Shown here piece by piece: positions 1-25,510 of a DNA stretch of 64,000 bases. A program made the translations under genes and the position numbers. The notes beneath the pieces were generated by a model. It saw nothing but the letters and a program-made list of their open reading frames with translations. It ran no database searches and had not been told where the DNA came from. Within the stretch, counting starts at the first letter, position 1. Every line of letters begins with the position of its first letter. Origin of the DNA: Eudoraea chungangensis (lineage in GTDB: Bacteria; Bacteroidota; Bacteroidia; Flavobacteriales; Flavobacteriaceae); assembly GCF_029360665.1 (NCBI RefSeq), contig NZ_JARDUB010000001.1, forward strand, positions 124,001 through 188,000, written 5' to 3'.

Positions 1-99
1 GAATTTAAAAAGGCCAAGGAGTACTATAAACGTTTAAGACAAGATGGTTTTGAGGATGAAAATACAGAGCGAATCTGGGAGCAACTAAAAGATTTTTAA
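1..99 (+). CDS. hypothetical protein, C-terminal part only
   Basis: An open frame runs in from the left edge and stops at a TAA at 97-99, giving the last 32 residues of a protein that starts outside the window. The tail is highly charged and ends in WEQLKDF, with the look of an amphipathic helix. Too little is visible to assign a family. It is followed by a 61-bp gap before the next gene on the same strand. Confidence 0.6.
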   Translation, partial: EFKKAKEYYKRLRQDGFEDENTERIWEQLKDF

Positions 100-160
100 A
101 CAAAAGTAAGCATATGTTTATTTCATATATCGTATCACAAAAAATATTAAGACAATTCAT

Positions 161-658
161 ATGAATTTAATCGTAATTAAAGCACTATCTGTATTACTAT
201 TACTAGTTCCCAAGGTATTTCAAGAGTCTAATCGAATAACTAAAGAAGAATTAAACCTTATTACGGGTTCCTGGAAGGGTAGTCTAACCTATTTAGATTA
301 TAGCTCGAATAAACCTTTTAGCATGCCGGCAAATTTAATGGTAAAACAAGGTTCAACTAAGCAGGAACTTATTCTTATGAACGACTACCCTCAGGAACCG
401 AATGCCAATAGTTCTGAAAAAATAAAGGTTTCTAAAAATGGGGAGGCTATCAATGGTTATAAAATAATTAGTAAAATAAAACGCTCCGATGGCAATCTTG
501 AAATAACAACGGAACACAAAGGAAAAAACAACAACAAAAGTGCCCTGATAAGAAATATTTATATCCTGGGTATTAACCATTTAATTATACGGAAAGAAGT
601 TCAATTTAAAGGCTCCATGAATTGGATAAGGAGGAATGAGTTTTCCTATACTCGCTAA
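161..658 (+). CDS. secreted lipocalin-like hypothetical protein
   Basis: 165 residues. Residues 1-21 form a signal peptide with a hydrophobic LLLLV core and a likely cut after VFQ; there is no lipobox cysteine, so the product is probably soluble in the periplasm. The mature part begins with an ITGSWKGSL segment (about residues 34-42), the G-x-W signature typical of lipocalin-like beta barrels, followed by alternating hydrophobic strands. The ligand is unknown. It stands alone between the partial gene and the AlkD-type gene. The exported nature is well supported; the lipocalin fold is an inference from the GxW motif and strand pattern. Confidence 0.6.
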   Translation: MNLIVIKALSVLLLLVPKVFQESNRITKEELNLITGSWKGSLTYLDYSSNKPFSMPANLMVKQGSTKQELILMNDYPQEPNANSSEKIKVSKNGEAINGYKIISKIKRSDGNLEITTEHKGKNNNKSALIRNIYILGINHLIIRKEVQFKGSMNWIRRNEFSYTR

Positions 659-728
659 AAGAAATACCATTAAACACCAACTCCTAAAATGATACTAATT
701 TGCACTATCGTCTTTAATTAAACTATCT

Positions 729-1439
729 ATGAAAGAAGATTTGGTCTCCCAAGTAAAACAGGAACTTTCTAAAAACGCAGAAACTACCACCCAGAATTCC
801 AACCAAAGATTCTTTAAAGAACCTATTCAAAATTATGGAGTTAAAGCGTCTATTGTCCACAAAATTGCTAAATCACATTTAAAAGAACTGAGAGAAAAAA
901 CAAAAGAAGAAGCATTTAATTTGTGTGAAGAATTATGGGAATCTGGGCAGATTGAAGAAACTTTAGTAGCATGTGATTGGTCATATGCCTTGAGAAAGAG
1001 TTATGTGCCGGGCGACTTTAGAACTTTTAATAATTGGCTGGCCCTTTATGTTAACAATTGGGCATCCTGTGATACCTTTTGTAACCATACCATGGGTGCT
1101 TTTATAATGATGTATCCTAAATTCATTACAGAACTCAAGGAGTTTACGCTTTCCAATAATAGGTGGCTCCGAAGGGCTGCAGCCGTTTCCCTGATAGTTC
1201 CGGTTAGAAAAGGTGCATTTCTTCCGGATGTTCTGGAAATTTCTGATAAGCTCATTTACGATCAGGACGATTTGGTACAAAAGGGGTACGGATGGCTATT
1301 AAAAGTAGCTTCTAAAAATCATCAGGAGGTGGTGTTTAACTATATCATGGACAACAAGACTCGTATGCCAAGAACTGCCTTTAGATATGCCATAGAAAAA
1401 ATGCCGACTGAGTTAAAAGAACTTGCTATGCGGAAATAG
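729..1439 (+). CDS. DNA alkylation repair protein (AlkD-type DNA glycosylase)
   Basis: 236 residues, the usual length for AlkD family HEAT-repeat glycosylases, which excise 3-methyl and 7-methyl purines without flipping the base. Positions matching the B. cereus AlkD DNA-contact and catalytic residues can be seen: W111 and D115 in NNWASCD, R148/R149 in RWLRRAAAV, and W189 in KGYGWLLK. Helical HEAT repeats cover most of the chain. No signal peptide is present, so it acts in the cytoplasm on DNA. It is monocistronic, with 70 bp upstream and 123 bp downstream. A near-consensus -7 element (TAATTTG) lies about 30 bp before the ATG. Family assignment is firm; the preferred lesion is not known. Confidence 0.85.
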   Translation: MKEDLVSQVKQELSKNAETTTQNSNQRFFKEPIQNYGVKASIVHKIAKSHLKELREKTKEEAFNLCEELWESGQIEETLVACDWSYALRKSYVPGDFRTFNNWLALYVNNWASCDTFCNHTMGAFIMMYPKFITELKEFTLSNNRWLRRAAAVSLIVPVRKGAFLPDVLEISDKLIYDQDDLVQKGYGWLLKVASKNHQEVVFNYIMDNKTRMPRTAFRYAIEKMPTELKELAMRK

Positions 1440-1562
1440 GCGGAAATTCTTCTTGACAATGAGGAAGAAAAGGAGGTAATAATACCCAATGCCCCAATTT
1501 TAGCAGTCGAAAATTATTACATTTAGAATATGTAAAGACTTTAATATCACCTAGCCATTATT

Positions 1563-2987
1563 ATGAAAACATTTAAAACCATTGCCTTGATTGCTGCTTT
1601 TTTAACTGTACACCATAGCATTTCATCTCAAAACATAGCTGCTAATTTACAAGATTTTATAGGATTAAATGATTCTATCGTTGCCATCACCAATATTACC
1701 CTCATTGATGGTACGGGAAGCCCCCTCAAAAGAAATCAGGACATCGTCTTTACCAATAACAACATCCGGTCTATTGGTAATACCGGAGAAATAAGCATTC
1801 CTGCAAATGCCACCCTCATTGACGGCACTGACAAAACCCTGATTCCCGGTTTTATTATGATGCATGAACATTTATTCTATGCCAAACCTACCGAAAACAG
1901 GTACAAGGCCGTACATATGCCCTTTACTTTTCCAAGAATGTATTTAGCCGGGGGAGTAACGACCATGAGAACTGCAGGAAGTATAGAAGCTAATACCGAC
2001 TTAAATGTAAAAATGCTTATCCAGGAAGGAAAGATGATAGGACCTAAAATAGATGTATCCACTCCACATATAGAACATGAAGGTTTTATACCACAGCTTC
2101 AGTCTCTTTATGGAAATGAAAACATAGAAGACTGGCTTAACTATTGGTTTAAAAAAGGCGTGACATCGGTTAAAGTATATAATCATATCAGTAAAGAGGA
2201 GTTAAAGGAAATAATTCGGGTCTCGCATAAAAACAAGATCAAGGTAACAGGACACCTGTGTTCTATAACCTATCGTGAAGCTGCCGAATTAGGTATCGAC
2301 AATTTGGAACACAGTTTTCTTGCTGCTACCGATTTTGTAAAAAATAAGCCTGAAAATGAATGTGTACTAGACTATAGCTCTCTTTTAAAGTTAGATGATA
2401 ATGATCCTAAGCTAATGGAACTAATGAAGTCTTTAATCGATAGAGAGGTAACCCTTACCTATACCCCAACCGTATTTGAGCCATTTACCAATAGAGAAGT
2501 GATTCCTGGAGGCGGTATAAAATCGCTCGCACCAAGTTTGAAAAAGCATTTACAAGGCATCTATGATAATCAAATTAATACTAAAGCCGATTCAACGAGT
2601 TTGGTTCAGTTTAAAAAAGAAATGACAAGAATTAGAAAGTTCCACGCTTTAGGAGGTAAGCTAACTGTCGGCACAGATCCCACAGGTTCCGGAAAAACAA
2701 TTGCAGGATACGCCAACCAAAGAGCCTTTGAATTGTTAATTGAAACAGGTTTTGCTCTGGAAGAAGCTGTTAAAATTGCAAGCTCTAACGGCGCAGATTA
2801 TTTAGGAATATCAGAAGACACAGGAACTATTGAAGTAGGAAAAAAGGTCGACTTAGTTCTTATAAACGGGGATTTATCCAAAGACATTTCGTCTATACGA
2901 AAAATGGAACTGGTTTTTAAAGATGGTGTTGGCTATGACTCTCCTAAAATCTTTTCTTCTGTGGAAGGAAAAGTTGGTCTGTATTAG
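1563..2987 (+). CDS. exported amidohydrolase family protein
   Basis: 474 residues with an N-terminal signal peptide ending near HSISSQ (residues 1-23). It is a metal-dependent amidohydrolase: the metal-binding HxH is H101/H103 in PGFIMMHEHLF, further ligand candidates are the histidines in KVTGHLCS and DNLEHSF, and the catalytic Asp lies in VGTDPTG. The composite beta domain is closed by the C-terminal VDLVLINGDL segment, typical of imidazolonepropionase/prolidase-like members. The substrate cannot be read from the sequence; a periplasmic amide or peptide is likely. A SnoaL-like gene follows 48 bp downstream on the same strand, so they may be co-transcribed. Confidence 0.8.
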   Translation: MKTFKTIALIAAFLTVHHSISSQNIAANLQDFIGLNDSIVAITNITLIDGTGSPLKRNQDIVFTNNNIRSIGNTGEISIPANATLIDGTDKTLIPGFIMMHEHLFYAKPTENRYKAVHMPFTFPRMYLAGGVTTMRTAGSIEANTDLNVKMLIQEGKMIGPKIDVSTPHIEHEGFIPQLQSLYGNENIEDWLNYWFKKGVTSVKVYNHISKEELKEIIRVSHKNKIKVTGHLCSITYREAAELGIDNLEHSFLAATDFVKNKPENECVLDYSSLLKLDDNDPKLMELMKSLIDREVTLTYTPTVFEPFTNREVIPGGGIKSLAPSLKKHLQGIYDNQINTKADSTSLVQFKKEMTRIRKFHALGGKLTVGTDPTGSGKTIAGYANQRAFELLIETGFALEEAVKIASSNGADYLGISEDTGTIEVGKKVDLVLINGDLSKDISSIRKMELVFKDGVGYDSPKIFSSVEGKVGLY

Positions 2988-3035
2988 ATTCTATTTCGTC
3001 CTAGTAAAAAAATATCGTTAGAAAAATATGAGTTT

Positions 3036-3410
3036 ATGAAGGAAATCATGAAAAACAATGCCATTGCGTTTTACAAAATGGCCTATGAAGGTAATCCTAA
3101 AAAAGCATGCAAACTATATCTTGGTTCTGAATACATTCAGCATAACGCTGAGGTAGCAGATGGTGTGGAAGGTTTTATCGATTATTTTGAACGTATGCAG
3201 GTTGAATACCCCAATAAATCTATTGAATTTGTGAGGGTTATCTCTGAAGGGGATCTGGTAGCCTTACACACGCATCAAACCTGGCCGGATAATGATGAAT
3301 ACGTAACCATGGACTTTTTTAGATTTAATGAAAACGGAAAAATAGTAGAGCATTGGGATGCCATTCAACAAATTCCTAAAACTTCAAAGAACAATAACAC
3401 TATGTATTAA
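3036..3410 (+). CDS. SnoaL-like / NTF2-fold protein
   Basis: 124 residues, no signal peptide, about the normal size for SnoaL-like polyketide-cyclase or NTF2-fold proteins. The N-terminal helix, the YIQHNAEVADG segment and the C-terminal GKIVEHWDAIQQIP strand match the family pattern; such proteins bind small hydrophobic ligands or act as isomerases and hydrolases. An alternative start at the second Met (3051) is possible. The last 75 bp (3336-3410) recur with 5 mismatches at 12014-12088 as a broken gene end, which makes this gene the left boundary of the 8.6-kb cassette downstream. Confidence 0.75.
   Translation: MKEIMKNNAIAFYKMAYEGNPKKACKLYLGSEYIQHNAEVADGVEGFIDYFERMQVEYPNKSIEFVRVISEGDLVALHTHQTWPDNDEYVTMDFFRFNENGKIVEHWDAIQQIPKTSKNNNTMY
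3336..3410 (+). repeat. left copy of 75-bp direct repeat (3' end of SnoaL-like gene)
   Basis: The 25 final codons including the stop match 12014-12088 at 70 of 75 positions. The similarity ends exactly at the stop codon on the right and fades quickly on the left. Together the two copies bracket the regulator/amidohydrolase/porin cassette. Confidence 0.85.
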
Positions 3411-3436
3411 TAAATCTATTAAGGCAAAGTAAAAAT

Positions 3437-3444
3437 TATCTTTG
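3437..3444 (+). promoter_or_regulatory. candidate -7 promoter element (TATCTTTG)
   Basis: TATCTTTG fits the flavobacterial TAnnTTTG -7 consensus and lies 92 bp upstream of the LuxR/MalT-type regulator start, just inside the left repeat. No convincing -33 element is seen, so this is tentative. Confidence 0.4.
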
Positions 3445-3536
3445 ATTAAAAAAGTTAAAATACCAGTTGGAGACGAAAGAAGACCTTCTTAACTTTAATA
3501 GCTTAACATCCTTAAAAACTCCTCGTAAATATTCTG

Positions 3537-6188
3537 ATGGCACAAGACATTATTCCAAGGCATAGAATTTTTGACTCTCTAAAAGTTAACAATGATTTTA
3601 AGGTCATAACAGCAATAGCTCCAGGCGGCTATGGTAAAAGTATTGTAATAAAGTCATGGCTAAACCATGAAAAATCTAAATACTTTTGGTTAGATCTAAA
3701 CAAAAGAAATAGTGATACAAACTTATTTCTACAAGCTGTTCTAAAACAACTAGAAAGACTTATTCCAAACGATAGACCCAAAACTTTTGAACTACTTCGG
3801 AATGTCAATGAACAGGCTCCTTATATAATAGTGGAAACATTAATTGATGACTTAAATAAAATAAAGGAAGAATTATTTATTGTCTTCGATAACTACCAAG
3901 TGATTAATAACCCCATAATCCATAAGATTGTTCATGGGGTTATTAATTATTCCAATGAGAATATCAAAATAATTCTTATAAGCAGAAATCAACCTCCAAT
4001 TAATCTGACCAAACTAAAAATAAACTTTAAGGTAAAAGAGCTTTCCATGGCAAACTTAAAGTTCGACCTGTTAGAACTCAAATACTTAGTCCAAAAACTA
4101 AATTTAAATGAGATTAGTGATGGGGACTTAGGGCAATTGATAAATCTAACTGAAGGCTGGATTATTGCTTTGCGTGTTGCGTGCAATCAAATCTTAAACC
4201 AACATAGCATTACTGAAGTCATAAAGAATCTAAACAATAATTCAGTAAAATATTTTGATTTCTTTCTTAGGGATATTTTTCAAAGGCAAGATCCATATAT
4301 TCAAAAATACCTAGTATTATCTTCATTCCTCAACCAATTTACTGCCGAATTAATTAATTCTTGTATTCAGTTAGACACTATTGAAGTTAAGAACTTTTTC
4401 AAAAGAAAGAATTTTTTGAATCATTTACTAGACGACAGTTTGTTTTTGATTAACATCGATAATACTAATGAATGGTTCAGATTTCATCATCTATTTCAGG
4501 ACTACCTCCAAAGACAACATTACAATACCATAGCGGATAAGGATCTGGAAAATTTTATCCGAATCGTCTCTTATAAATTAAGTCGCACTAATAGAGTTGA
4601 AGAGGCAATAGAATATGCTTTGTCTGTAAATAACACAGAAATAGCAATTGACATATATTGTCAACATAAGGCAGACATCATAAATAAAGAAGAATTTAAT
4701 AGACTTGCCTACATTTTATCCTTATTTCCCAATGTTATTATTGAAGCCAATGTAGAACTACTCTTAGCAAGAGCTTTATTGGCAGATTGTAGAAGAAATT
4801 ACGTTGATCTGGAAAACGATTTGGCTTTAGCCAAAGTATTAATGGATAAGGAGAATGATTATACCAAAATTGGAGACTATTATAGTCTAATTTCCTTTAA
4901 ATATTATATGGAAGGTAAGGTTAATAAATCTTATGAATTTTCATCCAAAGCGTTACAAAAACTTTTCGACACTCACGGATATATAAAAGATTATGCTGTT
5001 GGCACACATGCTATTGCTATCTTCTCCCTAAAAAATGCAGACCATAGTTCAGAATTTTTAGATAAAAAACTAGAAAAAATAACAACTTATAATGAATTAG
5101 GTCGAATAAGGCTATTATCTGCAAAATCCAATATTCTAGCCATGGAGTCAGATTTAGAATCTTGCATAAAAAACGCATTGGCCTTCTTACGTATTAGCAA
5201 GAAGCAAGGACTCTTGATGAGCTGGACTATTGCGAGCTATTTTCTTGGCATGGCTTATTATCAAACGAATCAACTAGAAAAGGCAATACAGGCTTTGGAA
5301 CCATTGATTAACTCTAAATACTATGGAAGACCATTTTGGAATTTTAACATCTATTTTATTTATTTGAAAACCTTGCTGCATTTGCATAAAAATGAGGAAT
5401 TTAAGGCTTGCCTTGTACAATTTGACAACTTGGTGGTAAATTCAAAAGATGCAAAACATACCCAGTTTCTTAAATTTGTTAAAAGTGAAATAGCACTACT
5501 TAACAATGATGTTTTAGCAGCTAAAAGATTCTATCGAAATAGCGATTTAGCTCCATTTCCAATTATATTTTTTTCATTTTTTCCGCAATTGACCAACATA
5601 AAAATAATGCTTCACTCAACACTTCCGGAAGACATTGAACAAGCAGGAGAATGCTTAAGAGAATTATGTGTGGTTGCTAAAAAGCGTAATAATAATTTAT
5701 TGCTTATCCAATGCCTAGCCCTTGAGGCAGTTTACTTCGAAAAAACTAATGCAAAACAAGAATCCATAGCTTCTCTGAGCAATTCAATTATTTTAAATAA
5801 AAACGGGATTAATATAAGACTGTATTTGGACTTGGGTCTCCTAATAGAGCCATGCTTTGAACTTTTAAATGAGGCATCCAACAAAAATACCATTGTAGAT
5901 AAAGTATCGCACATGTATTGGGAAGGTCGATGGAATAAAAAAACCATACTTCATAAGGACAATATGCAGGGAAAGAAACTATTAATTGATAAGCCTATTT
6001 CTAAACGAGAATTGGAGATTATTGGATTAATAGCTCAAGGTTCTACAAATAATGAAATAGGAAAAAAGCTTTTTATTTCCGAGGAAACAGTAAAAAAACA
6101 TCTTTCGAAGGTATATCAAAAACTCAAAGTTAAGAATAGAATTGGGGCAGTCATTGAGGCGAAAAAACTAAAGCTAATAAAAGACTAA
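3537..6188 (+). CDS. MalT-type LuxR-family transcriptional regulator
   Basis: 883 residues, close to E. coli MalT (about 900). It has a STAND-type ATPase at the N-terminus with Walker A APGGYGKS (residues 28-35) and a Walker B-like LFIVFDN. A winged-helix region and a long helical TPR-like sensor section (about 350-780) follow. A LuxR-type HTH occupies about residues 816-883, with ISKRELEIIGLIAQG and EIGKKLFISEETVKKHLSKV. Regulators of this class multimerise with ATP when an inducer binds the TPR region, and then activate nearby operons. The gene is visibly AT-richer than its neighbours. It reads toward the amidohydrolase/porin operon 381 bp downstream, its most likely target. Confidence 0.88.
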   Translation: MAQDIIPRHRIFDSLKVNNDFKVITAIAPGGYGKSIVIKSWLNHEKSKYFWLDLNKRNSDTNLFLQAVLKQLERLIPNDRPKTFELLRNVNEQAPYIIVETLIDDLNKIKEELFIVFDNYQVINNPIIHKIVHGVINYSNENIKIILISRNQPPINLTKLKINFKVKELSMANLKFDLLELKYLVQKLNLNEISDGDLGQLINLTEGWIIALRVACNQILNQHSITEVIKNLNNNSVKYFDFFLRDIFQRQDPYIQKYLVLSSFLNQFTAELINSCIQLDTIEVKNFFKRKNFLNHLLDDSLFLINIDNTNEWFRFHHLFQDYLQRQHYNTIADKDLENFIRIVSYKLSRTNRVEEAIEYALSVNNTEIAIDIYCQHKADIINKEEFNRLAYILSLFPNVIIEANVELLLARALLADCRRNYVDLENDLALAKVLMDKENDYTKIGDYYSLISFKYYMEGKVNKSYEFSSKALQKLFDTHGYIKDYAVGTHAIAIFSLKNADHSSEFLDKKLEKITTYNELGRIRLLSAKSNILAMESDLESCIKNALAFLRISKKQGLLMSWTIASYFLGMAYYQTNQLEKAIQALEPLINSKYYGRPFWNFNIYFIYLKTLLHLHKNEEFKACLVQFDNLVVNSKDAKHTQFLKFVKSEIALLNNDVLAAKRFYRNSDLAPFPIIFFSFFPQLTNIKIMLHSTLPEDIEQAGECLRELCVVAKKRNNNLLLIQCLALEAVYFEKTNAKQESIASLSNSIILNKNGINIRLYLDLGLLIEPCFELLNEASNKNTIVDKVSHMYWEGRWNKKTILHKDNMQGKKLLIDKPISKRELEIIGLIAQGSTNNEIGKKLFISEETVKKHLSKVYQKLKVKNRIGAVIEAKKLKLIKD

Positions 6189-6569
6189 TCAGGAAAGCTA
6201 GATCTCAAGCTTCAAAAATGAAGGGTAAATTTCAAAAAATACAACTTTAGTGCTATTGTATACCACCAAGCTTTTAATGACTTTTATAAAAAATTGTAAA
6301 TTTCATAGCATTGATTTTGTAAAAGACTTCTGTTTTGATTTGGAGCTGACGGTCCAGTCAAAATATTGATTAAAATTCTCCCCCAGATAAGTCTATTTCA
6401 AACTATAATTCGCAATATTTTTCAATTTCTTTTTGAACTATAGATGAGACAATATAAAAAACATCTTAATCAAAATTAATTGAAGATACTTCACTGGGAA
6501 TATTAAGATGCTATAAAAACTAATCTAGTAATAGCAACACAAATAAAATATAATTCAAAACTTAAAAAA
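6189..6569. promoter_or_regulatory. 381-bp AT-rich regulatory gap before the amidohydrolase/porin operon
   Basis: No ORF of note. It holds a 9-bp inverted repeat (CATCTTAAT at 6462-6470, ATTAAGATG at 6502-6510) that encloses a smaller GAAG-ATA-CTTC dyad at 6482-6492, about 60-110 bp before the operon start. These could be regulator-binding or attenuation elements. No clear TAnnTTTG promoter was found. The functional reading is an inference from position only. Confidence 0.35.
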
Positions 6570-8174
6570 ATGAAAAGAATTCAAGCCTTCTGCCTTCTTT
6601 TAGGATTTATTATTATAACAGGGTGTAATTTAGAAACAAAAAAAGAAGAAAATCAGTCTAAAGATGTTTCCCTTTCTGCCGACACGGAATTTGATGTGGT
6701 AATATTAAACGGTAGGGTTATGGACCCTGAAACCAATTTTGATGGCATTAGAAATGTTGGGATTAAAGACGGTAAAATAGGGCTAATAACGGAAAAAGAA
6801 ATTTCTGGTAAGGAAAGTATAGATGCTTCAGGGCATGTGGTGTCTCCTGGTTTTATTGATTTTCATACGCATGCCTCCAATATTCCATTTGGACAGCGTT
6901 TGCATTTAAGAGATGGGGTGACTACTCCATTAGAATTAGAAGTAGGTGCTTATCCCTTGGATGCTTACTACAAAAGACTTGAGGGTAAATCCTATACAAA
7001 CTATGGTGCAACAATTGGGTTGGGCGGAATTCGTGAAAAAGTATCAAATCCAGATTACAATTCGACTTCGGGAAATTTGGTAACAGACCTTTTCAATGTG
7101 AATGAACATTCATTGGCCACGTTAGGGATTACCACTTTTCAAGCTTCTCCAGAGCAAATAGAGGTTATAGCTCAAAATGTCGAAGAAGGAATAAATCGCG
7201 GTGCATTGGGCATTGGTGTGCCCGTAGGTTACATGTCTACAGGGGCAACAACAGACGAAATGATTGATATGCAACGTTTAGCTGGAAAATACAAGTTATC
7301 CACGTTTCTTCACGGGCGTTTCTCGAGTCAAAAACCACCAACTTCAGGGATATTTGGCTTTCAAGAATTATTAGGACCTGCTGGTATTTATGGAGGCGGG
7401 ATTTATATTCATCACTTGCACCAACAGGCACTTAATCAAACACCAGAGGCATTAAAAATGATTGAAGATGCAAGAGCATCAGGGACAAAAATCATTGCAG
7501 AAATCTATCCGTATTACCAAGGTGCAACTATTGTAGGGGCAGATTATTTAGTTCCAGAAAATTATGGCCCAAATATGGGACGTAGCTATGAAGATATTAT
7601 AGAAGTAGCAACAATGAAGCCTTTAACCAAAGAGCGTTATGAGGAATTGGTGAAAACAAATCCCGCAGCTTCCGTAATTTTTGGAGGGATTTCAGAAGAC
7701 GGCCTTATGTCTGCTATGGCCGATCCTACCACCATTATTGGTAGTGATGGCATGCCTCTTACTATAAGCGCCACCGGAGAAATGGCTGTAGACTTTAATA
7801 TACCATTTGATGGGGTTCAGGGGCATCCTCGTGGTGCAGGATCACATGCAAAAGTACTTCGATTAGTAAGGGAGAATCAGCTTATGCCCCTAATGTTGGC
7901 AATAGAAAAAATGACTATCATGCAAGCCAAATATCTAGAAGAAAACGGGGTGCCTGCCATGGCCAGGAAAGGACGCCTACAAATTGGTAAGGATGCCGAT
8001 ATAACTATTTTTGATCCCGCTACTGTTAAAGATAATGCCACAATGGTAAAGGCAGGCTTGCCTTCCACGGGTATTCCTTATGTGTTGGTTAATGGAACCA
8101 TTGCAGTAAAGGATTCTAAAGTCTTAGAAAATGTGCATGCAGGACAACCGATTAGAAATCCAATAAAAGAATAA
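6570..8174 (+). CDS. lipoprotein N-acyl-D-amino-acid deacylase-like amidohydrolase
   Basis: 534 residues. A lipoprotein signal peptide ends in IITGC with Cys19 as the lipid anchor. The rest is an amidohydrolase of the D-aminoacylase group: N-terminal FDVVILNGRVMDPET, metal HxH at H99/H101 (GFIDFHTH), H248 in TFLHGRF, the YIHHLHQQ cluster at about 279-286, catalytic Asp393 in IIGSDG, the GHPRGAG loop and a C-terminal GKDADITIFDP strand. The Cys metal ligand of classical D-aminoacylases (GNCG motif) is absent; LELEVG with E122/E124 stands there instead. It is the first gene of a tight operon with a secreted paralogue, a porin and an HdeD-like protein. It probably hydrolyses an N-acyl or cyclic amide outside the cytoplasm; the substrate is unknown. 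Confidence 0.82.
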   Translation: MKRIQAFCLLLGFIIITGCNLETKKEENQSKDVSLSADTEFDVVILNGRVMDPETNFDGIRNVGIKDGKIGLITEKEISGKESIDASGHVVSPGFIDFHTHASNIPFGQRLHLRDGVTTPLELEVGAYPLDAYYKRLEGKSYTNYGATIGLGGIREKVSNPDYNSTSGNLVTDLFNVNEHSLATLGITTFQASPEQIEVIAQNVEEGINRGALGIGVPVGYMSTGATTDEMIDMQRLAGKYKLSTFLHGRFSSQKPPTSGIFGFQELLGPAGIYGGGIYIHHLHQQALNQTPEALKMIEDARASGTKIIAEIYPYYQGATIVGADYLVPENYGPNMGRSYEDIIEVATMKPLTKERYEELVKTNPAASVIFGGISEDGLMSAMADPTTIIGSDGMPLTISATGEMAVDFNIPFDGVQGHPRGAGSHAKVLRLVRENQLMPLMLAIEKMTIMQAKYLEENGVPAMARKGRLQIGKDADITIFDPATVKDNATMVKAGLPSTGIPYVLVNGTIAVKDSKVLENVHAGQPIRNPIKE

Positions 8175-8209
8175 GTCGTTTTAAAAAAAATTAACACAAA
8201 ATACATATT

Positions 8210-9796
8210 ATGAAAAGAAAAAATATAACAGTTGTCTATTTACTTTTAATTTTTACAATTAATTATTCATTCGCTCAAAGCACTATATCAAAAAGTCTAC
8301 CTGTAAAAACTGACTTTGATGTGGTTATTTTAAACGGAAGAGTCATTGACCCAGAAACTAATCTTGATGCTATTAGAAATGTAGGTGTCAAAGATGGTTC
8401 TATAGGGATTATTACCGAGAAAGACATCAAGGGAAAGAAAACCATTGACGCAACCGGTAAAATAGTTTCTCCAGGCTTTATTGATTTGCACATGCATGGA
8501 TTGAACATTAGTGCATACAGAATGCAAGCCATGCAGGGAGTAACCACCGCTTTAGAATTAGAGTCAGGAATACTACCCATCAATGATTTTTATGAAGGAC
8601 AAGCAACTAAAAATCTACCCATTCACTATGGAGCCGCAGCCGCATGGACCTTTGGGCGCATTGCTACTTTTACCGAAAAAGAACCAGAAGCTACGGCCGA
8701 CTATTTTCAAAATGCTCAAGGGGTAGATAATTGGAAGAAAGAATTAGCTTCTCCTGAGCAACTAGAAAAAATTCTGAATGAAGTTGAGGAAGGCTTAAAG
8801 CAAGGTGCCATAGGGATTGGCGTTAATGCAGGTTATGCTCCTGGCAATGGACATTTGGAATATTACAAGGTTTCCAAACTCGCCAAAAAATACAATGTGG
8901 GTACTTTTACACATGTGCGCTTTATGAAAGGCCCTGAGCGCAACAATGCCTTTGAAGCCTTTCAAGAATTAATTGCCAATGCCGCTGCCACAGGTGTGGA
9001 TATGCATATTTGCCACATCAACAGTAGTTCGCAAAAGGATATTGAAAATACCTTAGAACTTTTTGAAAATGCCAAAGCCAACGGTATTTCTGTTACTGCT
9101 GGTGCTTATCCATGGGGTGCTGCAAGTACAGTTATCAAAGCCGCTATGTTCACAGGTCCAACCTGGAAGGAAGACATGGAAACCGATGAGACGGCTTTTC
9201 AATTGGGACCAAACCGCCTAACGAAAGAACAATTTGACGACTTGCAGGCTAATGAGCCTGGCACCTTTATAGTGTGGCACTTCCTAGATCCTGCAAAACC
9301 AGATGAACTTGCGTTAATGGATGCCTCTATTTTACATCCAGACGTCTTAATTGAATCTGATGCTATTCCATGGTATGCCAGTGTAGATGGTAAAATTGTA
9401 CCTTATGAGGGAGATGAATGGCCATTGCCAAACAACCTTGTTAACCACCCTAGATCTAGTGCCACGTATACTAAAATATTGCAAGATTATGTGAGGGATA
9501 GAGAGTTAATGTCTTTATCAACTGCCATCAAGAAAATGAGCCTTATGCCAGCGCAAAACATGGAAGACGCTGTTCCCCAAATGAAGAAAAAGGGTAGGCT
9601 TCAAGTGGGCATGGATGCAGATGTTCTAGTTTTTGATCTTAATGCTATTAAAGTAAATGCAAATTATATTAAACCTTACCTTGCCTCGGAAGGAATGTCT
9701 ACTGTCTTAGTAATGGGGACTCCAGTTATTGAAAATGGCGAACTATTATTAGATGCTGCTCCAGGACAAGCCATTAGGAATTCATCAAAAGATTAA
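8210..9796 (+). CDS. secreted N-acyl-D-amino-acid deacylase-like amidohydrolase (paralogue)
   Basis: 528 residues with a cleavable signal peptide (cut after SFAQ, about residue 23), so soluble in the periplasm. The first 65 mature residues are very close to the preceding gene (FDVVILNGRVIDPET), while the central part has diverged, as expected of an old tandem duplication. Metal ligands are H94/H96 in GFIDLHMH, then THVRF, HICHINSSS and an Asp in IESDAIPWY; the NHPRSSATY loop is conserved. It too has LELESG (E115/E117) in place of the GNCG cysteine motif. It lies 35 bp after its paralogue and 20 bp before the porin. The two enzymes may act on different chain lengths or on successive steps; this is inference. 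Confidence 0.82.
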   Translation: MKRKNITVVYLLLIFTINYSFAQSTISKSLPVKTDFDVVILNGRVIDPETNLDAIRNVGVKDGSIGIITEKDIKGKKTIDATGKIVSPGFIDLHMHGLNISAYRMQAMQGVTTALELESGILPINDFYEGQATKNLPIHYGAAAAWTFGRIATFTEKEPEATADYFQNAQGVDNWKKELASPEQLEKILNEVEEGLKQGAIGIGVNAGYAPGNGHLEYYKVSKLAKKYNVGTFTHVRFMKGPERNNAFEAFQELIANAAATGVDMHICHINSSSQKDIENTLELFENAKANGISVTAGAYPWGAASTVIKAAMFTGPTWKEDMETDETAFQLGPNRLTKEQFDDLQANEPGTFIVWHFLDPAKPDELALMDASILHPDVLIESDAIPWYASVDGKIVPYEGDEWPLPNNLVNHPRSSATYTKILQDYVRDRELMSLSTAIKKMSLMPAQNMEDAVPQMKKKGRLQVGMDADVLVFDLNAIKVNANYIKPYLASEGMSTVLVMGTPVIENGELLLDAAPGQAIRNSSKD

Positions 9797-9816
9797 AAAC
9801 CAGACTAGAAATTATT

Positions 9817-11136
9817 ATGAATTTAATAATGAATCGAACTGACTTTGTTTTGATGTACTTAGTAGGCGCTCTTTTTTTCTCAGCTCCAGTACTATCGCAA
9901 AATCAAGATAAAAGTGAAGTAACTACAGACACTATTCCTGCAGGAGTACGTGGGTCTATTAACCCTTTAACGGATAATAACCCCGTACATACGGGAGAAA
10001 ATTTATTGGATGACTCCTTTCCTAGTTCATGGCCATTGTTTGGCTCTGATATTCGCATGCGTATTGGTGGTTACGTTAAAGCAGATTTTATAAGAGACTT
10101 TGATTATTTGGCAGATCGATACGAATTTGAATTGGGAAGTATAGCCGTTGAAGGTTCTCCGGAGCGAGAATTAGGTGGGATTTCTACCTTTCATGCAAAG
10201 CAGACCAGGATTAATTTTGATTTTAGATCCAAGGCAAAATGGGGCAATGGCAAAGAGTTTCCGATGCAAGTGTTTTTGGAACTAGATTGGTTTTTTGATT
10301 CTGATGCTTTTAGGTTAAGTACAAGATTGCGTCATGCTTATGGGGTAATTGGAAGGCTATTAGTTGGGCGTACTTGGACTACGTCGGCTGACCTAAGCAC
10401 TTTGCCTGGAACAATTGATTTTGCAAATGGCGATGCCCTATATGGTGGGAGAACTACGCAAATTCGTTGGCAAGATAAGATTAACGATAAGTTCTCGTAT
10501 GCAGTGGCTTTAGAAGACTTTGCGCCTCAAATAGACAACGTTTTAGATCAAGAGGGGGCCGCAAGACCCTTATGGCCAAATATAGCCGCAATGGTAAAGG
10601 CGAAATCTAGTAATGGGTCTAGTATTCAATTGGGATTAGATGTTTTTCCACTAAGCTGGAAAGGACCTTCCACCGTTCCCAATTCCAATAAAACAGGGTA
10701 TGCCATAACCGCCACGAGTAGAATAGTGTTAAAGGTTACAGAATACCAAGATGCCTTTGTTTGGGGTGCGGGATATGGTGAAGGGCAAGCACACAAAATC
10801 ATTTCACTTTCTTGGGACGGCAAAGCCTCTGGGACACTTACAAACAATGATTTAACCCTAGCTCCAGCATGGTTTGCCTTCGCAGGATACAATCATTATT
10901 GGAGTAAGAAGTTTAATTCCAATATATCCACGGCTTGGAGCGGAACCACCTTATCGTCTTTACAATCGGACGATACCATTCAAAAGGCAGGTTCGGTCCA
11001 TGCCAATCTAATATACTTTCCAACTCGAATGATTTCTGCGGGGATAGAATATATGTGGGGCGTAAGAGAAAATAAAAATGGCATTGAAGGTACTGCATCA
11101 AGAGTTCAGGCCATGGTTAAATTTAAATTTAATTAA
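9817..11136 (+). CDS. DcaP-like outer-membrane porin
   Basis: 439 residues with a signal peptide (cut after VLSQ, about residue 27). The segment MRIGGYVKADFIRDFDYL, followed by long amphipathic strands with LRHAYGVIGRLLVGRTWT, is characteristic of the DcaP trimeric porins that pass small anionic carboxylates. The chain ends in an aromatic beta strand (MVKFKFN). It lies 20 bp after the second amidohydrolase and 11 bp before the HdeD-like gene, so a shared transcript is very likely. In context it would admit the acidic amide substrate or its precursor across the outer membrane. An alternative start is Met5 at 9829. Confidence 0.8.
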   Translation: MNLIMNRTDFVLMYLVGALFFSAPVLSQNQDKSEVTTDTIPAGVRGSINPLTDNNPVHTGENLLDDSFPSSWPLFGSDIRMRIGGYVKADFIRDFDYLADRYEFELGSIAVEGSPERELGGISTFHAKQTRINFDFRSKAKWGNGKEFPMQVFLELDWFFDSDAFRLSTRLRHAYGVIGRLLVGRTWTTSADLSTLPGTIDFANGDALYGGRTTQIRWQDKINDKFSYAVALEDFAPQIDNVLDQEGAARPLWPNIAAMVKAKSSNGSSIQLGLDVFPLSWKGPSTVPNSNKTGYAITATSRIVLKVTEYQDAFVWGAGYGEGQAHKIISLSWDGKASGTLTNNDLTLAPAWFAFAGYNHYWSKKFNSNISTAWSGTTLSSLQSDDTIQKAGSVHANLIYFPTRMISAGIEYMWGVRENKNGIEGTASRVQAMVKFKFN

Positions 11137-11147
11137 ATTAAAAAATT

Positions 11148-11681
11148 ATGAAAACAGTTAGTAAGTATTGGTGGTTAACTTTAGTAAGAGGTCTTGTTTT
11201 AATCCTATTAGCAGTGATGGTATTTAAGCATCCAGTAGGAGCCTTAGTTGGAGTGGCCATGTATTTAAGTATTAGTTTACTTTTTGTAGGCATTACCCAA
11301 ATATTTATGGCCATAGCAACCAAACAAACTCAAGATAATTGGGGTTGGACGCTAACGGTAGGTCTTATCGATGTTTTTATAGCCTTTATTCTGTTGTCTA
11401 ATCCTGCGGTAACGGCAGCAACCCTGCCTTTTGTAGTGGGCTTTTGGTTAATTGTGGCAGGTGTTATGAATTTTGTAAATGCCTTTCAAGATAAAAAAGA
11501 AGGCTTGGCCTACTGGTGGTTAGGATTAGTTGGTGGGGTGCTAATGATTTTAATAGGATTTAAACTTACCAATAATTTACTGGTTGGTACAATGGCCATT
11601 ACCTCTTGGATTGGCATTGGATTATTATTGGCAGGTATAATCAATATAGCTGTTGCTTTTGGATTGAAATCTTTGAAATAG
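11148..11681 (+). CDS. HdeD-like (DUF308) integral membrane protein
   Basis: 177 residues made almost entirely of six hydrophobic segments in the three-repeat pattern of HdeD/DUF308 proteins, for example LVRGLVLILLAVMVF near the start and LGLVGGVLMILIGF in the third repeat. E. coli HdeD is linked to acid resistance, though its molecular activity is not known. It is the last gene of the operon, 11 bp behind the porin. Release of acids by the neighbouring deacylases could explain its presence, but that is inference. The family call is firm. Confidence 0.8.
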   Translation: MKTVSKYWWLTLVRGLVLILLAVMVFKHPVGALVGVAMYLSISLLFVGITQIFMAIATKQTQDNWGWTLTVGLIDVFIAFILLSNPAVTAATLPFVVGFWLIVAGVMNFVNAFQDKKEGLAYWWLGLVGGVLMILIGFKLTNNLLVGTMAITSWIGIGLLLAGIINIAVAFGLKSLK

Positions 11682-11983
11682 GACCAAGTTGCAAAGCTTT
11701 TTATTTAATATTTAATGTCAATTGAACATCTGGGATATAATGAATTAAATAATGATATTCAAGGGAGTGTGGGGAAAGCACAAACAATAGTCTTTAAAGG
11801 AAATAGTAGGATTCAAAATGGAATGAAAAATAGGATTCTTCTATATTCTATCACCTAAAATAAGCATCTACTCCCTTCACGCTAATTTTATGAAGCGTAT
11901 AAACAATAGGTAAACCTGACCATTAAGAAAGCTAGCCATTTTAGAAGGAAATCAATTCTTGAATAGAAACAATCCCAATGTTT
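11682..11983. other. non-coding gap at the right end of the cassette
   Basis: About 300 bp between the HdeD-like gene and the SnoaL-like remnant. It has only a 47-codon ORF (11715-11858) with no recognisable motif. No terminator hairpin, integrase fragment or IS end is evident. This is the probable scar region of the rearrangement that left the remnant. Confidence 0.5.
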
Positions 11984-12088
11984 CCGATGATTTTTTCCAA
12001 TCTGGAGAATAGAGGCAAAATAGTAGAGCATTGGGATGCCATTCAACAGATTCCAAAAACTTCAAAGAATAATAACGCTATGTATTAA
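11984..12088 (+). pseudogene. 3' remnant of a SnoaL-like gene (right copy of the direct repeat)
   Basis: Reading in frame to the TAA at 12086-12088 gives GKIVEHWDAIQQIPKTSKNN and the same final residues as the intact protein at 3036-3410, except Ala for Thr near the end. 12014-12088 matches 3336-3410 at 70 of 75 bases. About ten codons further upstream, only scattered residues still align, and the first three quarters of the gene are missing. Four of the five mismatches are synonymous third-base changes, so the copies diverged while both were still translated. The remnant marks the right edge of the cassette. Confidence 0.85.
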
Positions 12089-12211
12089 TCCCCAATTATT
12101 TAGTACCTTGGGGTTATACCCAAATTTTACCAGTAGTTTTTAATTAAGCGGCCATACTTAAGGCAATGGTCTATACCAAAAAATAGAGTCTAGATACCAA
12201 TCGTACCAAAA

Positions 12212-13285
12212 ATGACAGAACTATTAAATGAAATTGAATGGAGTGAGCCAACCATTTCCATTGTGCATGACAAGAAATGGGAGGCAGAAGTAAAAGCCGA
12301 CATAGGCAGAGTAGCAGACGTACATATGCGCACTTCTCCCAGCCCATGGCTACGGAAAATCATCCTTAAATGGCCGCGTTATGAGGCTAAAGAGTTTCCA
12401 AGAAAATTGGCAGATATATGCGGTCTTGTCGCAGCGCAGGAAAATGCATGCAGGTATTGCTTTGGTGTTGCCCGATCCTGGATGCGACTTTGGGGATATT
12501 CTGAAAAAATGATTAATAATATAGAACGGAATGTTCAAATGGCTGATTTGGAAGAAAAGGAAAGGGCTTTTATACGCTTCTGCAGAAACCTTTCGAGATC
12601 TAATCCCCGGCCACCAAAGAAAGATAGAGACGAGCTACTGCGCTTGGGCTATTCCGAATTAGCCATTGCGGAAATGGCTTTTCTAATTGTTAACCATTGC
12701 TTTGTAAATAGGGTGTCAACCTTTATAGCCGTACCTCCCATGGAAGAATTAGAGAATCTCCCGAATAGCCTCCTTGGGAAAGCACTGAGACCTTTGTTTG
12801 GATGGAAACTCAGAAGTATTGGCTGGACAGAAACTAAGGCATTGAAGGGGAAACCAGAATCATTTCCTGGAGTTGTCCAAAAACTCATTGGGCTACCGGC
12901 GGCCTATGCCATGAATGAAGCGCTCAGCGAAGCACTAGAATCAGAAGCCCTGTCTAGGAAGCTAAAAATACTTATGTTTGCGGTTGTAGCCCATAGTCTG
13001 GAATGTAAATTTTGTCAGGCCGAAACCGCTGCCATGGCAATGGAATGCGGTTTTACAGAGGAAGAGTTTAATAAAGCGCTTGCCACGCTGTCCTCTCCCC
13101 ATTTAAATGAGCAAGAGGAAAAATTACTTGCCTGGACAAGGGAGACTATTCACTTTCAAAATGCACCTATGCAGTCCAGGATTAGGAAACTTGCAAAAGA
13201 AGTCGGAGAACCTATGATGCTAGAGGCTATAGGAGTTGCATCTCTTGCTAACTCAACTGTTAGACTAGCTGTGCTTCTCGGATAA
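12212..13285 (+). CDS. double carboxymuconolactone decarboxylase/AhpD-like protein
   Basis: 357 residues, no signal peptide. Two AhpD/CMD-like helical units are joined in one chain: the first has the redox-type CxxC at C80/C83 (ENACRYCFG), the second at C265/C268 (HSLECKFCQAE), each followed by a helix as in AhpD peroxidases. Single-domain relatives are about 150-190 residues, so this is an internal duplication or fusion. AhpD-like proteins reduce peroxides or pass electrons to peroxidases; a decarboxylase role is less likely with CxxC present. Its stop codon overlaps the start of the cyclase gene (TAATG), which implies translational coupling. Confidence 0.8.
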   Translation: MTELLNEIEWSEPTISIVHDKKWEAEVKADIGRVADVHMRTSPSPWLRKIILKWPRYEAKEFPRKLADICGLVAAQENACRYCFGVARSWMRLWGYSEKMINNIERNVQMADLEEKERAFIRFCRNLSRSNPRPPKKDRDELLRLGYSELAIAEMAFLIVNHCFVNRVSTFIAVPPMEELENLPNSLLGKALRPLFGWKLRSIGWTETKALKGKPESFPGVVQKLIGLPAAYAMNEALSEALESEALSRKLKILMFAVVAHSLECKFCQAETAAMAMECGFTEEEFNKALATLSSPHLNEQEEKLLAWTRETIHFQNAPMQSRIRKLAKEVGEPMMLEAIGVASLANSTVRLAVLLG

Positions 13286-14076
13286 TGGAATTAGTATACT
13301 ACATCGCCGGATTGCTAATAGCTTTGCTTCTTGTATTAATTCTGTTTTTTAAGCAGAAAAAGAGGAATAAACAGCTAATTAAACTCTTGGGACATACAAA
13401 TAAAAAGCTCGAAAGACTTCAAATTCATTTTGGTAGATTTACACCGGAAGAGGTTATAGAACATCTGACAGATTCTGATAGTACATTTAAACCAACCCTT
13501 CGATCTGTAACTGTATTATTTGCAGATTTGAAAGGATTTACAAAGATGTGTGAAGAAAGAGATCCTGTGGAAGTGATGGGTATTTTAAATGGTTATTTAC
13601 GCTGCATGAGTGAAGTATTAAGTCGCCATCACGGACAGGTTACAGAACTTATCGGGGACGGGATTATGTCTCTTTTTGGTGCTTTAAGCAACAACCCCTG
13701 GCAGGTACAGGATGCCGTTATGGCGGCATTGGATATGCGAAAGGCACTTCAGGAATACAATAATGAACTGCGATCCAAGTCTTTGCCAGAACTGTCTTTT
13801 GGCATTGGGATTCACAAAGGGCAAGTTCTTGCTGGGGTTATGGGTAATTATGAGTTAAGCAAATTTGGTGTGGTTGGAGACGCAATTAATGTGGCCTCAC
13901 GAGTTGAAACGCTCACAAGGGAGCATAAGACAGACATTCTAGTAACTGATACTATTGTAGCCGAATTAGATGATCGTTTTGTATTAAAAAAAATGCCTCC
14001 TGTTAAAGTGAAAGGAAAGTCGGAGCCCATTGTAACCTATGTAGTTGAAAAACTGCTTAATAAAAGTGGTACCTAA
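13285..14076 (+). CDS. membrane-anchored class III nucleotidyl cyclase, probably guanylyl type
   Basis: 263 residues: one N-terminal membrane helix (about 4-22), a short coiled-coil linker and a class III cyclase domain (about 70-255). Metal-binding Asp81 (FADLKGFT) and Asp125 (IGDGIM) are present, as are the transition-state residues Asn202 and Arg206 (INVASR), so the enzyme should be active. The purine-selecting Lys of adenylyl cyclases, four residues before Asp125, is Glu121. The second selecting position, three residues before the GD of VVGDAIN, is Gly195. An E/G pair is unlike the K/T or K/D of adenylyl cyclases and resembles the pair I recall for the cyanobacterial guanylyl cyclase Cya2. 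The start overlaps the stop of the AhpD-like gene. Confidence 0.82.
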   Translation: MELVYYIAGLLIALLLVLILFFKQKKRNKQLIKLLGHTNKKLERLQIHFGRFTPEEVIEHLTDSDSTFKPTLRSVTVLFADLKGFTKMCEERDPVEVMGILNGYLRCMSEVLSRHHGQVTELIGDGIMSLFGALSNNPWQVQDAVMAALDMRKALQEYNNELRSKSLPELSFGIGIHKGQVLAGVMGNYELSKFGVVGDAINVASRVETLTREHKTDILVTDTIVAELDDRFVLKKMPPVKVKGKSEPIVTYVVEKLLNKSGT

Positions 14077-14203
14077 ATTTAGCCGTATTCCTTTAATTTA
14101 AAAATGTATATTTCTTTAAGTTGAGATATTTATTACTATTAAAGGGATGTTTATATTCCAAATAGATGCACAAAAATTAATTAACCTTTAAATAAATACT
14201 TTT

Positions 14204-14575
14204 ATGAAACTTGGAGCCTTTTCCGTCAGTTTATCAGTGAAAGATTTAAGCAAGTCGCAGTCCTTCTACGAAGCCTTAGGGTTTAAGCTGTTTGCAGGAT
14301 CTCATGAGATGAACTACCTGATAATGAAAAATAATAAATCACTTATTGGCTTGTTCCATGGCATGTTCGAAAACAACATCCTCACATTTAATCCGGGATG
14401 GGATGAGAATGCTCAGGAGTTAGCCACTTTTGACGACGTTAGAGAAATTCAAAAATCTTTAAAAAAAGATAACATCCCCCTTCTTTCTGAAGCGGATGAA
14501 TCTACTACTGGTCCTGCCAGTTTTATGGTTTTAGATCCGGATGGTAATCAGATACTAATAGATCAACACATATAA
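14204..14575 (+). CDS. VOC family (glyoxalase/bleomycin-resistance-like) protein
   Basis: 123 residues forming a single VOC module of two beta-alpha-beta-beta-beta units: LGAFSVSLSVKDLSKSQSFY at the start and FMVLDPDGNQILID at the end, the classic tail of the family. No signal peptide, so cytoplasmic. Members bind metal and act on small toxic or stress-related metabolites; the ligand here cannot be told. It lies 54 bp upstream of the large BNR-repeat gene on the same strand, possibly co-transcribed. Confidence 0.8.
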   Translation: MKLGAFSVSLSVKDLSKSQSFYEALGFKLFAGSHEMNYLIMKNNKSLIGLFHGMFENNILTFNPGWDENAQELATFDDVREIQKSLKKDNIPLLSEADESTTGPASFMVLDPDGNQILIDQHI

Positions 14576-14629
14576 TTTTTTATAGTTTAAAAACAGCTTT
14601 TTAACAAGACTATCCAACAAATCGGACTA

Positions 14630-17600
14630 ATGAGAAATAACATCCATTACCTTTTCCTATGCGCTGCTGTATTTTTTATAACGAATACCTCTGCACAGAA
14701 CAAAACTAGTACTAGTTCAAAAGAATCTTCTTCCATACCTAAGTTGTTCTATGAAGGGCTTCAATGGCGAAATATTGGACCTCATAGAGGAGGCAGGTCT
14801 TTGGGTAGCAGTGGAAGCCCGGGGCGACCTAACGAATATTATTTTGGGGCCACAGGAGGGGGATTATGGAAAACAACAGATGGAGGTAATGAATGGTTTC
14901 CTGTTACCGACGGGCAGCTCACTAGCTCCTCCGTTGGTGCCGTTGCAGTTGCCGAAACCAACCCAGATGTGGTATATATAGGAATGGGAGAGGTGCAACT
15001 GAGAGGTAGTATTACACAGGGCGATGGGGTATATAAGACTATAGACGGTGGAAAAACCTGGAGACATCTTGGCTTAAAAGAAACCCAGGCAGTAGCTAGA
15101 ATCCGAATTCATCCAACGAATCCGGAGATTGTGTATGTGGCAGCCTTAGGGCATCCATATGGAGAAAATGAAGAACGGGGAGTATTCAGGTCCACCAACG
15201 GAGGTAATAGTTGGGAAAAGGTTTTATATGTTAGTCCTAAGGCCGGTGCAGTAGACCTTATTATAGACCGTAATAATCCTAAGGTATTATATGCCAGCAC
15301 CTGGCAGGTCTATCGTAAGGCATGGAAAATGTGGGGCGGTGGAGGCGATAGTAAGTTATGGAAATCGACCGATGGCGGGGATACATGGACAGACCTAAGT
15401 GAAAATCCAGGTATGCCAAAAGGTCCAATTGGTAAGATTGGGGTAACAGTTTCTCCTGCGGATTCAAATAGAGTCTGGGCCATAGTAGAGGCCAATGAAG
15501 GGGGAGTCTTTAGATCAGATGACGCTGGGGCAACTTGGGAACGTACCAATGAAGAGCGTAAGTTACGACAGCGTGCTTTTTATTATTCAAGAATTTATGC
15601 AGATCCCTGGGACAAAGAAACTGTTTACTGCCTAAATACCGGCTTTTATAAGTCGACCGATGGAGGAAAGACCTTTGATACCACCATTAAAGTACCTCAT
15701 GGAGACAACCATGATTTATGGATAGATCCAAATAATCCTAAACGTATGATAAATTCTAACGACGGGGGAGGAAATGTAAGTATTAACGGTGGGGATAGCT
15801 GGACGGAGCAAGACTATATTACTACACAGTTCTACCATGTAATGACCACCAATGACATCCCATATCATGTAGCAGGTGCCCAGCAAGATAACAGCACTCT
15901 AGCAATGCCTAGCGATGGGTGGGAACATATGCAGGCGAGAGGTCCAAATCACGGATGGTTTTACGCCGTAGGCGGAGGAGAAAGTGGTTGGATCACTCAG
16001 CATCCCAAAAATTTGGATATTTTCTATGCAGGAAGTCAGGGAGCCCTTTTAACCAGATATGATAGAAGCAATGGTCAGACAAGAGATATACAAGTTTATC
16101 CCCGTTTCTTTTCAGGAGAACCGGCCGATGCACTTCCAGAACGTTGGCAATGGACTTTCCCAATAATGTTTGCTCCACAAGATTCAAAAGTTATGTACAC
16201 CTGTTCCCAACATGTTTGGAAAACCATTAATGACGGCCAAACATGGGAAAAAATTAGCCCGGATCTTACGTATGCCGATCGAGAGACCTTGGGAAAAACG
16301 GGCGGTGTCATTACCATGGATATGAATGGGCCCGAAATATATGCTACCGTATTTGCCTTAGCCCCCTCCTATCATGATATCAATACCATCTGGGCAGGAT
16401 CTGATGACGGGAAAGTGCATATTACAAGAGATGGCGGTGAGCATTGGGAAGACATTACTCCTCCCGATTTACCCAAGTTTTCACGGGTAAGCATTATAGA
16501 TGAATCAAAACACCGTCCGGGCACGCTTTTTCTAGCTGCTAACCGATACCAAGTAGATGACAGAGAACCTTATGTTTTTAAAACACATGATTATGGAAAA
16601 ACGTGGCAAATGATAATTAACGGGCTAGAGAAAGGACATTTTGCCAGGGCAGTTAGAGAAGATCCAAAAAGGGAGGGTCTACTTTTTCTGGCAACAGAAC
16701 ACGGCGTATATTTCTCAGTTAATGATGGGGTTTGGTGGCAGAGTATTCAATTAAACCTTCCGGATACCCCCGTTCGGGATTTGGTAGTTAAAGACAATGA
16801 TGTGGTCATCGGTTCTCATGGAAGAGGGTTTTGGATTTTAGACGACATTCTTCCCATACGTCAATACCAGAGTACAATGAAAGATGAGGCAGCAATTCTG
16901 TTTAAACCTTCCAATGTTTATCGGGGCTTAGAAGATGCCTCCATACAATACTATCTTAACGAACAAATAGACAGTATTACCTTTGAAATTTTTGATGCAA
17001 ATGATAACCTTATAAACACATTTACCGGGAGTAAGACCAAATATGAAGCGGATCCTGATATTCCTTGGTGGATGCAAGGAGGTTCCACCAAGCCAACAAT
17101 TGCCAAGGGCCTAAATAACTTTAGCTGGGATTTAAGATATCCGGGAGCTACAGAATTTGAAGGTATGATTATCTGGAGTGCTCGTCCTCAAAGGGGTCCA
17201 AAAGCACCATTAGGCACATACAAAGTAAAGATGAAGACCAAAAGTTACGAGAAATCATATGATTTTACCGTCCAAATGGATCCCAATCTTAAAGGCGTTT
17301 CAGAAGCGGATTTACGGGAGCAGTTTAACCTGGCCAACAAAATAATGCAAAAGACCAGTGCGGCCAATGAGGCGGTTATTCAAATACGTCAAATGAGAAA
17401 ACATCTAGAAAACTCAAAGAGTAAGTTGTCTGCTGCAGATTATAAAAGAACAATAATGCCATTTATAGACAAAACTGCAATAATAGAAAAAGAATTATAC
17501 CAAGTTAAAAATCAATCCGGACAAGATCCTCTGAATTTTCCAATAAAACTTAACAACAGACTCGCCTCACTAAGAAGAAGTGTTGAAAGTGGAGATGCCA

Positions 17601-17755: not shown

Positions 17756-17953
17756 CAAAGGCTAAAATTTGTATACCTTTACACCTTAATTACAGAAATT
17801 AAATTTTAAGTTTTCGATTTGGGCACTCATGAAAATATATAAAGACATTCCCTAATAACTGGATGTTTCATATATGTGCCTTTACGACACCATACTATAA
17901 AGCACTTATTCCATATAGGGCAAATAGCAATAGAATTATTAGTCTTAAAAAAA

Positions 17954-18373
17954 ATGGATAGTAAAAATACTTTTGAAATTAATTTTTTAGATCATGTTGC
18001 TATTCGGGTAAAGGATTTGAAAATATCGGAAACCTGGTATACAAAAGTCTTAGGATTAAAAAAATATCAATTAGAAGAGTGGGGCGAATATCCAATTTTT
18101 ATGTTAGCGAATAAAACCGGGATTGCTCTTTTCCCTGCGAACAGAGCAGACAAGGAATTAGATATAAAATCAAAAAATGTAAAAATAGACCATTTTGCCT
18201 TTAATGTATCGAAGGAGAATTTTGAAAAAGCCCGTAAAAAATATCAAGAATTAAATATAAATTTTCATTTTCAGGATCATCATTATTTTCATTCCATTTA
18301 TACCAAAGATCCGGACGGACATACCGTAGAATTAACCACCTTAGTTGGAGATGAAAAAACATTTTACAAATAA
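17954..18373 (+). CDS. VOC family protein
   Basis: 139 residues from the ATG at 17954; an upstream GTG at 17876 would add 26 residues unlike the family, so it was not used. The first half has LDHVAIRVKDLKISETWY and the second KIDHFAFNVSKENFEKA, ending in KDPDGHTVELTT, the metal-site Glu strand of VOC enzymes. Candidate metal ligands are the His of DHVAIRV, the His of DHFAF and the Glu of TVELTT, as in glyoxalase I, fosfomycin-resistance and dioxygenase relatives. The substrate is unknown. It is a single gene between the BNR protein and the helicase. Confidence 0.78.
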   Translation: MDSKNTFEINFLDHVAIRVKDLKISETWYTKVLGLKKYQLEEWGEYPIFMLANKTGIALFPANRADKELDIKSKNVKIDHFAFNVSKENFEKARKKYQELNINFHFQDHHYFHSIYTKDPDGHTVELTTLVGDEKTFYK

Positions 18374-18515
18374 AAAATCCCTCCAAAAGAGAGCATAAAA
18401 TATTAATCCTGGAAATAATAATCTATACCTAATAGACTCGAACCTTTTTTCCAAGTAATGGAAGAGAAGAAAATAATTAACCATAAGGTAATTCGAGTCC
18501 TTAATCCAAAAAATA

Positions 18516-19784: not shown

Positions 19785-19892
19785 GCTTAGGAGGGCATTT
19801 AGCCAATAGAAATACTATAAATAAGACTGTAGTCTAAATTACGAACATTCAATTCTTTATAGCAGACAAACCGCCAAGTACTTGAGTTCAGT

Positions 19893-25430: not shown

Positions 25431-25448
25431 GGTATAAGGTACACCATT

Positions 25449-25488: not shown

Positions 25489-25510
25489 ATCAACGTTTGT
25501 ATTGAATAAT

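Follow-up and report, generated by a model that had tools for sequence, protein, structure and literature searches.

Direct repeats of 12–54 bp are quoted for streptococcal elements with tyrosine integrases, and for the elements at guaA and rplL the repeat is reported to contain precisely the 3′ end of the protein gene (PMC4701971). A locus of Eudoraea chungangensis resembles the guaA and rplL elements in that the exact 3′ end of a gene is repeated directly around a block, with one copy on each border. It differs from those elements in that the repeat spans 76 bases and holds five differences, and also in that no integrase or conjugation gene was seen and no empty site was found. The locus can also be compared with a truncated paralogue near an intact copy. 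Both arrangements hold a full and a partial gene on the same strand, and these are closest kin. The locus departs from a plain truncated paralogue in that a five-gene unit separates the copies and the 5′ part is only faintly traceable. In the literature, no paper was found that joins three of the topics SnoaL, Flavobacteriaceae, horizontal gene transfer and gene remnant. The features of the locus are as follows, in coordinates of the window (the whole stretch of 64,000 nucleotides that was analysed):

3036..3410, + strand: intact SnoaL-like gene, 124 aa (Pfam SnoaL, 1.8e-12); its last 75 bases, 3336–3410, are the left repeat
3537..6188, + strand: MalT-like LuxR-type regulator, 883 aa (GerE, 1.3e-18; 238.5 bits with the MalT model, short of the cut-off of 537)
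6570..8174, + strand: amidohydrolase 1, D-aminoacylase type (Amidohydro_3; NF006560 over cut-off)
8210..9796, + strand: amidohydrolase 2, same family as amidohydrolase 1 (NF006560 over cut-off)
9817..11136, + strand: DcaP-like outer-membrane porin (DcaP, 5.8e-11)
11148..11681, + strand: DUF308 (HdeD-like) membrane protein (DUF308, 8.4e-23; 41.8 bits with the HdeD model, short of the cut-off of 189)
11926..11975, + strand: possible remnant of the start of a SnoaL gene, faint, without the start codon and no more than suggestive (sequence likeness)
12014..12088, + strand: right repeat, a SnoaL-like 3′ gene end without a complete gene (sequence match, genome search)

Between the two copies lie one regulator and one operon, as the original prediction had described and as a Pfam scan bore out. 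The four genes that follow the regulator are tightly packed, with spacings of 35, 20 and 11 bases calculated from the coordinates. Amidohydro_3 enzymes here adjoin both a regulator and an outer-membrane porin, as in operons of the D-aminoacylase type, and the solved structures nearest to amidohydrolase 1 by sequence are D-aminoacylases. The cassette is an ordinary nutrient-use unit; judging by family membership, its operon would take up and deacylate N-acyl-amino-acid-like compounds. Promoter and terminator scans gave results at chance level. Elsewhere in the window, two palindromes, one of 30 bases (61316–61345) and one of 42 (25448–25489), are near-perfect and are perhaps intergenic terminators.

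The cassette is also a recurrent kind of nutrient-use locus. Relatives of amidohydrolase 1 (E up to 1e-60) are present in 10 of 249 genomes of the family, its own included. In G254, an operon in a different gene order from that of the window matches the amidohydrolases at 72% and 82%, the porin at 84% and the DUF308 protein at 61%, with no match to the regulator in the 18 kb read around it. G177, G107 and G163 hold fewer of the same gene types than G254, and in G001 and on contig C2 of the same genome as the window a similar-sized regulator adjoins such amidohydrolases. For the cassette regulator itself (E up to 1e-60), the closest matches are only 26–27% identical and come from 2 other genomes of the 249. 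The regulator/amidohydrolase/porin operons of the family are alike in gene types to the cassette of the window, whereas the order of the genes, the number of amidohydrolases and the presence of a regulator or porin all vary. As to the cassette at other sites, which had been proposed as a check, loci of a similar kind thus recur in G254, G001 and on contig C2.

The repeat was found where the original prediction had placed it. Bases 3336–3410 and 12014–12088 form a direct repeat with 70 of 75 bases identical, as confirmed by alignment of the tails and by a genome search, and a longer alignment of the two SnoaL tails reaches 93.4% over 76 bases, with sharp edges on both sides. The whole 3.73-Mb genome yields two matches to the repeat in total (E 3.2e-33 and 2.7e-26), and a dispersed repeat sequence was rejected because the genome holds these two alone. 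The likeness sets in at codon 101 of 124 and ends one base past the stop codon. Downstream of the stop codons, the flanks (3411–3536 and 12089–12211) are no more alike than background. The tails were compared with those of 36 other genes of the same gene family for which loci were available; 7 of these belong to genus-mates and 29 to the wider taxonomic family. Since the best of these agrees with the left copy at 61 of 75 bases and with the right copy at 60 of 75, the left and right tails are each other's closest kin, as is expected of a truncated paralogue and its intact copy.

The right repeat may be the remains of a second SnoaL-like gene that was internally deleted, with an ordinary cassette lying between the copies, and we hold this reading at about even confidence. 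Four of the five differences between the tails are synonymous, on 13 sites, and one is nonsynonymous, on 59 sites. This is an excess of synonymous changes if neither copy is assumed to be constrained (Fisher 0.003); if the left copy alone is constrained, at least four synonymous changes of five would arise by chance with a probability of 0.03 to 0.06. With four synonymous differences out of five, the evidence tends to favour a divergence of two functional genes before one of them broke; the two may have shared a genome or belonged to separate, closely related lineages. Under such a course of events, two SnoaL-like genes, closest kin of each other, would have diverged while both worked; the start of the right one and about 230 bases from its middle would then have been deleted, and only the 3′ end would remain. 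The unit would have come to lie between the copies by tandem duplication, or on an acquired segment that carried a SnoaL gene.

A possible trace of the missing gene start lies ahead of the right tail. Bases 11926–11954 match the SnoaL start region at 3020–3048 at 72% of 29 bases, colinear and in the same orientation, but about 230 bases nearer the tail than in the intact gene. Among 116 start regions of the same genome, the SnoaL start gives the best match under two scorings (29 against 23 for the next, and 45 against 40). Within the adjacent 101 bases, the background fraction is 0.0003–0.003 for the start region and 0.002–0.013 for the whole gene. These fractions grow with cheap gaps or when the whole 332-base gap is taken, where they reach up to 0.014 (start region) and up to 0.32 (whole gene). 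When about 12,700 overlapping windows were ranked, the best rank fell between 1 and 32, depending on scoring and stretch. Shuffles of the chosen pair of regions, which were picked after the first match had been seen, never reached the score of the trace (0 of 1000), whereas shuffles of the whole gap against longer left regions did as well in 451 and 547 of 1000. In an earlier test with 100 plain shuffles, the trace scored 29 and the best shuffle 30. The likeness is suggestive of a gene start before the right tail, rather than proof of one. The original prediction had called the right copy only a gene end; there is indeed no complete gene there, but given the faint, suggestive start trace before 12014, the right copy probably comprises more than that. 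The trace fits a second gene copy whose middle was lost. Against that reading, the short trace is not significant in the wider tests, the downstream flanks show no likeness, and neither the nine genus-mates nor the family draw yielded a relative with a second full copy.

Relatives offer little that can be aligned with the locus. SnoaL is present in eight of nine genus-mates, with one match each, and G003 has no match. The surroundings were read in seven of the eight, the locus of the remaining one (G004) being cut by a contig end, and in 12 further loci of the family, two of them uninformative (L091 and L094, where SnoaL was not parsed as an ORF). In six of the seven genus-mates, SnoaL lies in one shared operon, at a place different from that in the window. 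This context is fixed in the six genus-mates, whereas contexts vary in the rest of the family: in L017, L018 and L020–L023, SnoaL lies beside conserved genes that were judged by eye, without a scan, to be DnaJ-like and CbpM-like. None of the seven has the window genes from 161 to 14575 around SnoaL, and the few genes near SnoaL in G007 and G008 that resemble genes of the window or its left flank correspond to those at −5701, 14630, 19893 and 25511, outside the finding. In a protein tree of 37 rows, the window gene does not group with the copies of the six genus-mates, at weak support, and a single origin of the gene for the genus would still be compatible with this tree. Another SnoaL-like gene of the family, at G018:C19:268684-269044, looks split into two frames.

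The original prediction had proposed, as a check, that relatives should be sought in which SnoaL directly precedes the AhpD-like gene; no genome compared shows this order. The AhpD-like right neighbour is absent from all nine genus-mates at E 0.001 and occurs in 3 of 249 family genomes, its own included; the two others both fall outside the set of 38 genomes that match SnoaL at E 1e-20. In these two genomes, as in one named Flavobacteriales MAG, the gene before the AhpD-like gene is not SnoaL. No empty site was found among the nine genus-mates and the family draw, which comprise one genome per species, so this absence says little about sister strains. At the DNA level, window bases 1–20000 give only scattered matches of single genes or parts in the nine genus-mates, and none of them has an equivalent of the block at this position. 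Gene order here is therefore not conserved, and no empty or filled site can be compared. A second SnoaL tail was found in no other genome of the family draw of 249, where the extra tail matches beyond full genes have E 2e-6 or weaker and lie in open frames of 265–489 aa. Likewise, no relative with the same gene order and two full SnoaL copies was found among the nine genus-mates and the family draw.

Three alternatives rank below an internally deleted second gene: first homologous uptake, next an island whose integrase was lost, and last a gene end that was copied astray. Homologous uptake could take the form of a single crossover with a circle or of a one-sided exchange. In either form, DNA of a near relative would have recombined in the resident gene; besides the cassette, this DNA would have brought the 3′ portion of the relative's SnoaL gene, leaving a hybrid full gene on the left and a truncated one on the right. 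This is possible but rather unlikely. The tails differ mostly synonymously, as genes of two lineages would, the cassette type is found elsewhere without SnoaL, the window SnoaL stands apart from the copies of the six genus-mates in the weakly supported tree, and gene order at the locus is not conserved. However, neither a donor nor an empty site was found, and unless the incoming DNA included a complete gene, the start trace would have to be put down to chance. The composition of the whole block is also ordinary, with 23 of 96 background stretches deviating as much, so that a foreign composition of the block is unsupported; taken separately, the regulator (11 of 262 background stretches) and the operon (16 of 230) are mildly unusual. 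A stray copy, in which template switching or a similar repair event pasted the gene end 8.7 kb away, is improbable. The sharp edges of the 76-base match, and other direct repeats outside genes in the same genome, would suit it, but mostly synonymous differences fit it poorly (0.03–0.06) and the start trace would be chance.

The original prediction was that the block had been inserted into, or exchanged at, the SnoaL-like gene, as an island that restores the 3′ end of its target. Some insertion or exchange is plausible because, at the DNA level, the nine genus-mates lack the block at this position and SnoaL does not lie beside the AhpD-like gene in the three other AhpD-bearing genomes, but the key evidence for the island is absent. 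It is doubtful that a since-lost integrase inserted the block in the SnoaL 3′ end, restored that end and left the old one at the far side. The end of the repeat at the stop codon plus one base would suit such an event, as would the exact 3′-end repeats reported at guaA and rplL (PMC4701971). On the other side, the repeat exceeds the 12–54 bp range given there and holds five differences, no empty site was found, and no second tail turned up in the nine genus-mates or the family draw. That no integrase remains at the block had been noted from the start, and the scans agree: none was seen among the ten proteins at 161–13285 (Pfam scan), and the seven tyrosine integrase matches in the genome all lie outside the window, the nearest at C1:90842-91354, about 36 kb to the left. 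Another match, at G000:C3:708716-709195, has an internal stop codon and is probably a broken integrase gene. The block amounts to a regulator plus an operon; among the ten proteins scanned, neither a mobility gene of another kind nor a conjugation gene was seen. The window has neither a tRNA nor an Rfam match at gathering score. In a viral collection, neither of two patterns used for the SnoaL tail found a contig that bears it, and viral contigs gave no relative of amidohydrolase 1 or the regulator. SnoaL homologues occur on 140 plasmid records (best 75%) and on 4 phage records (about 32%), and amidohydrolase homologues on 104 plasmid records, all under 60%. Loss of a paralogue, which the original prediction had named as its own refuting case, would fit better than the island, short of proof. 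A broader version, in which metabolic cassettes in this family attach or are exchanged at the SnoaL 3′ end, through an unseen recombinase or recombination of diverged copies, is very improbable; an attachment site of this kind, if real, would add one more protein gene to the known island targets in this group. If the right repeat is instead a remnant of a second gene, as the evidence favours, it is a small scar of past rearrangement. In our judgement, duplication or recombination left an ordinary scar here, in a region with little conservation of gene order.

Bracketing by a direct repeat is in itself nothing rare in this genome, since a comparison of 164 kb of it with itself revealed two other direct repeats of 80% or more. 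The longer, of 457 bases at 92%, lies in L081 at 2302–2755 and 5552–6006 (C1, about 1,034,300 and 1,037,550); it holds no open frame over 75 aa and brackets two genes just before another amidohydrolase gene. The shorter, of 120 bases at 82%, lies outside called genes in L128 (C3) at 11646–11765 and 13621–13740, and 71 of its bases recur at 87% near L013/L014, close to a gene with two SnoaL-like stretches.
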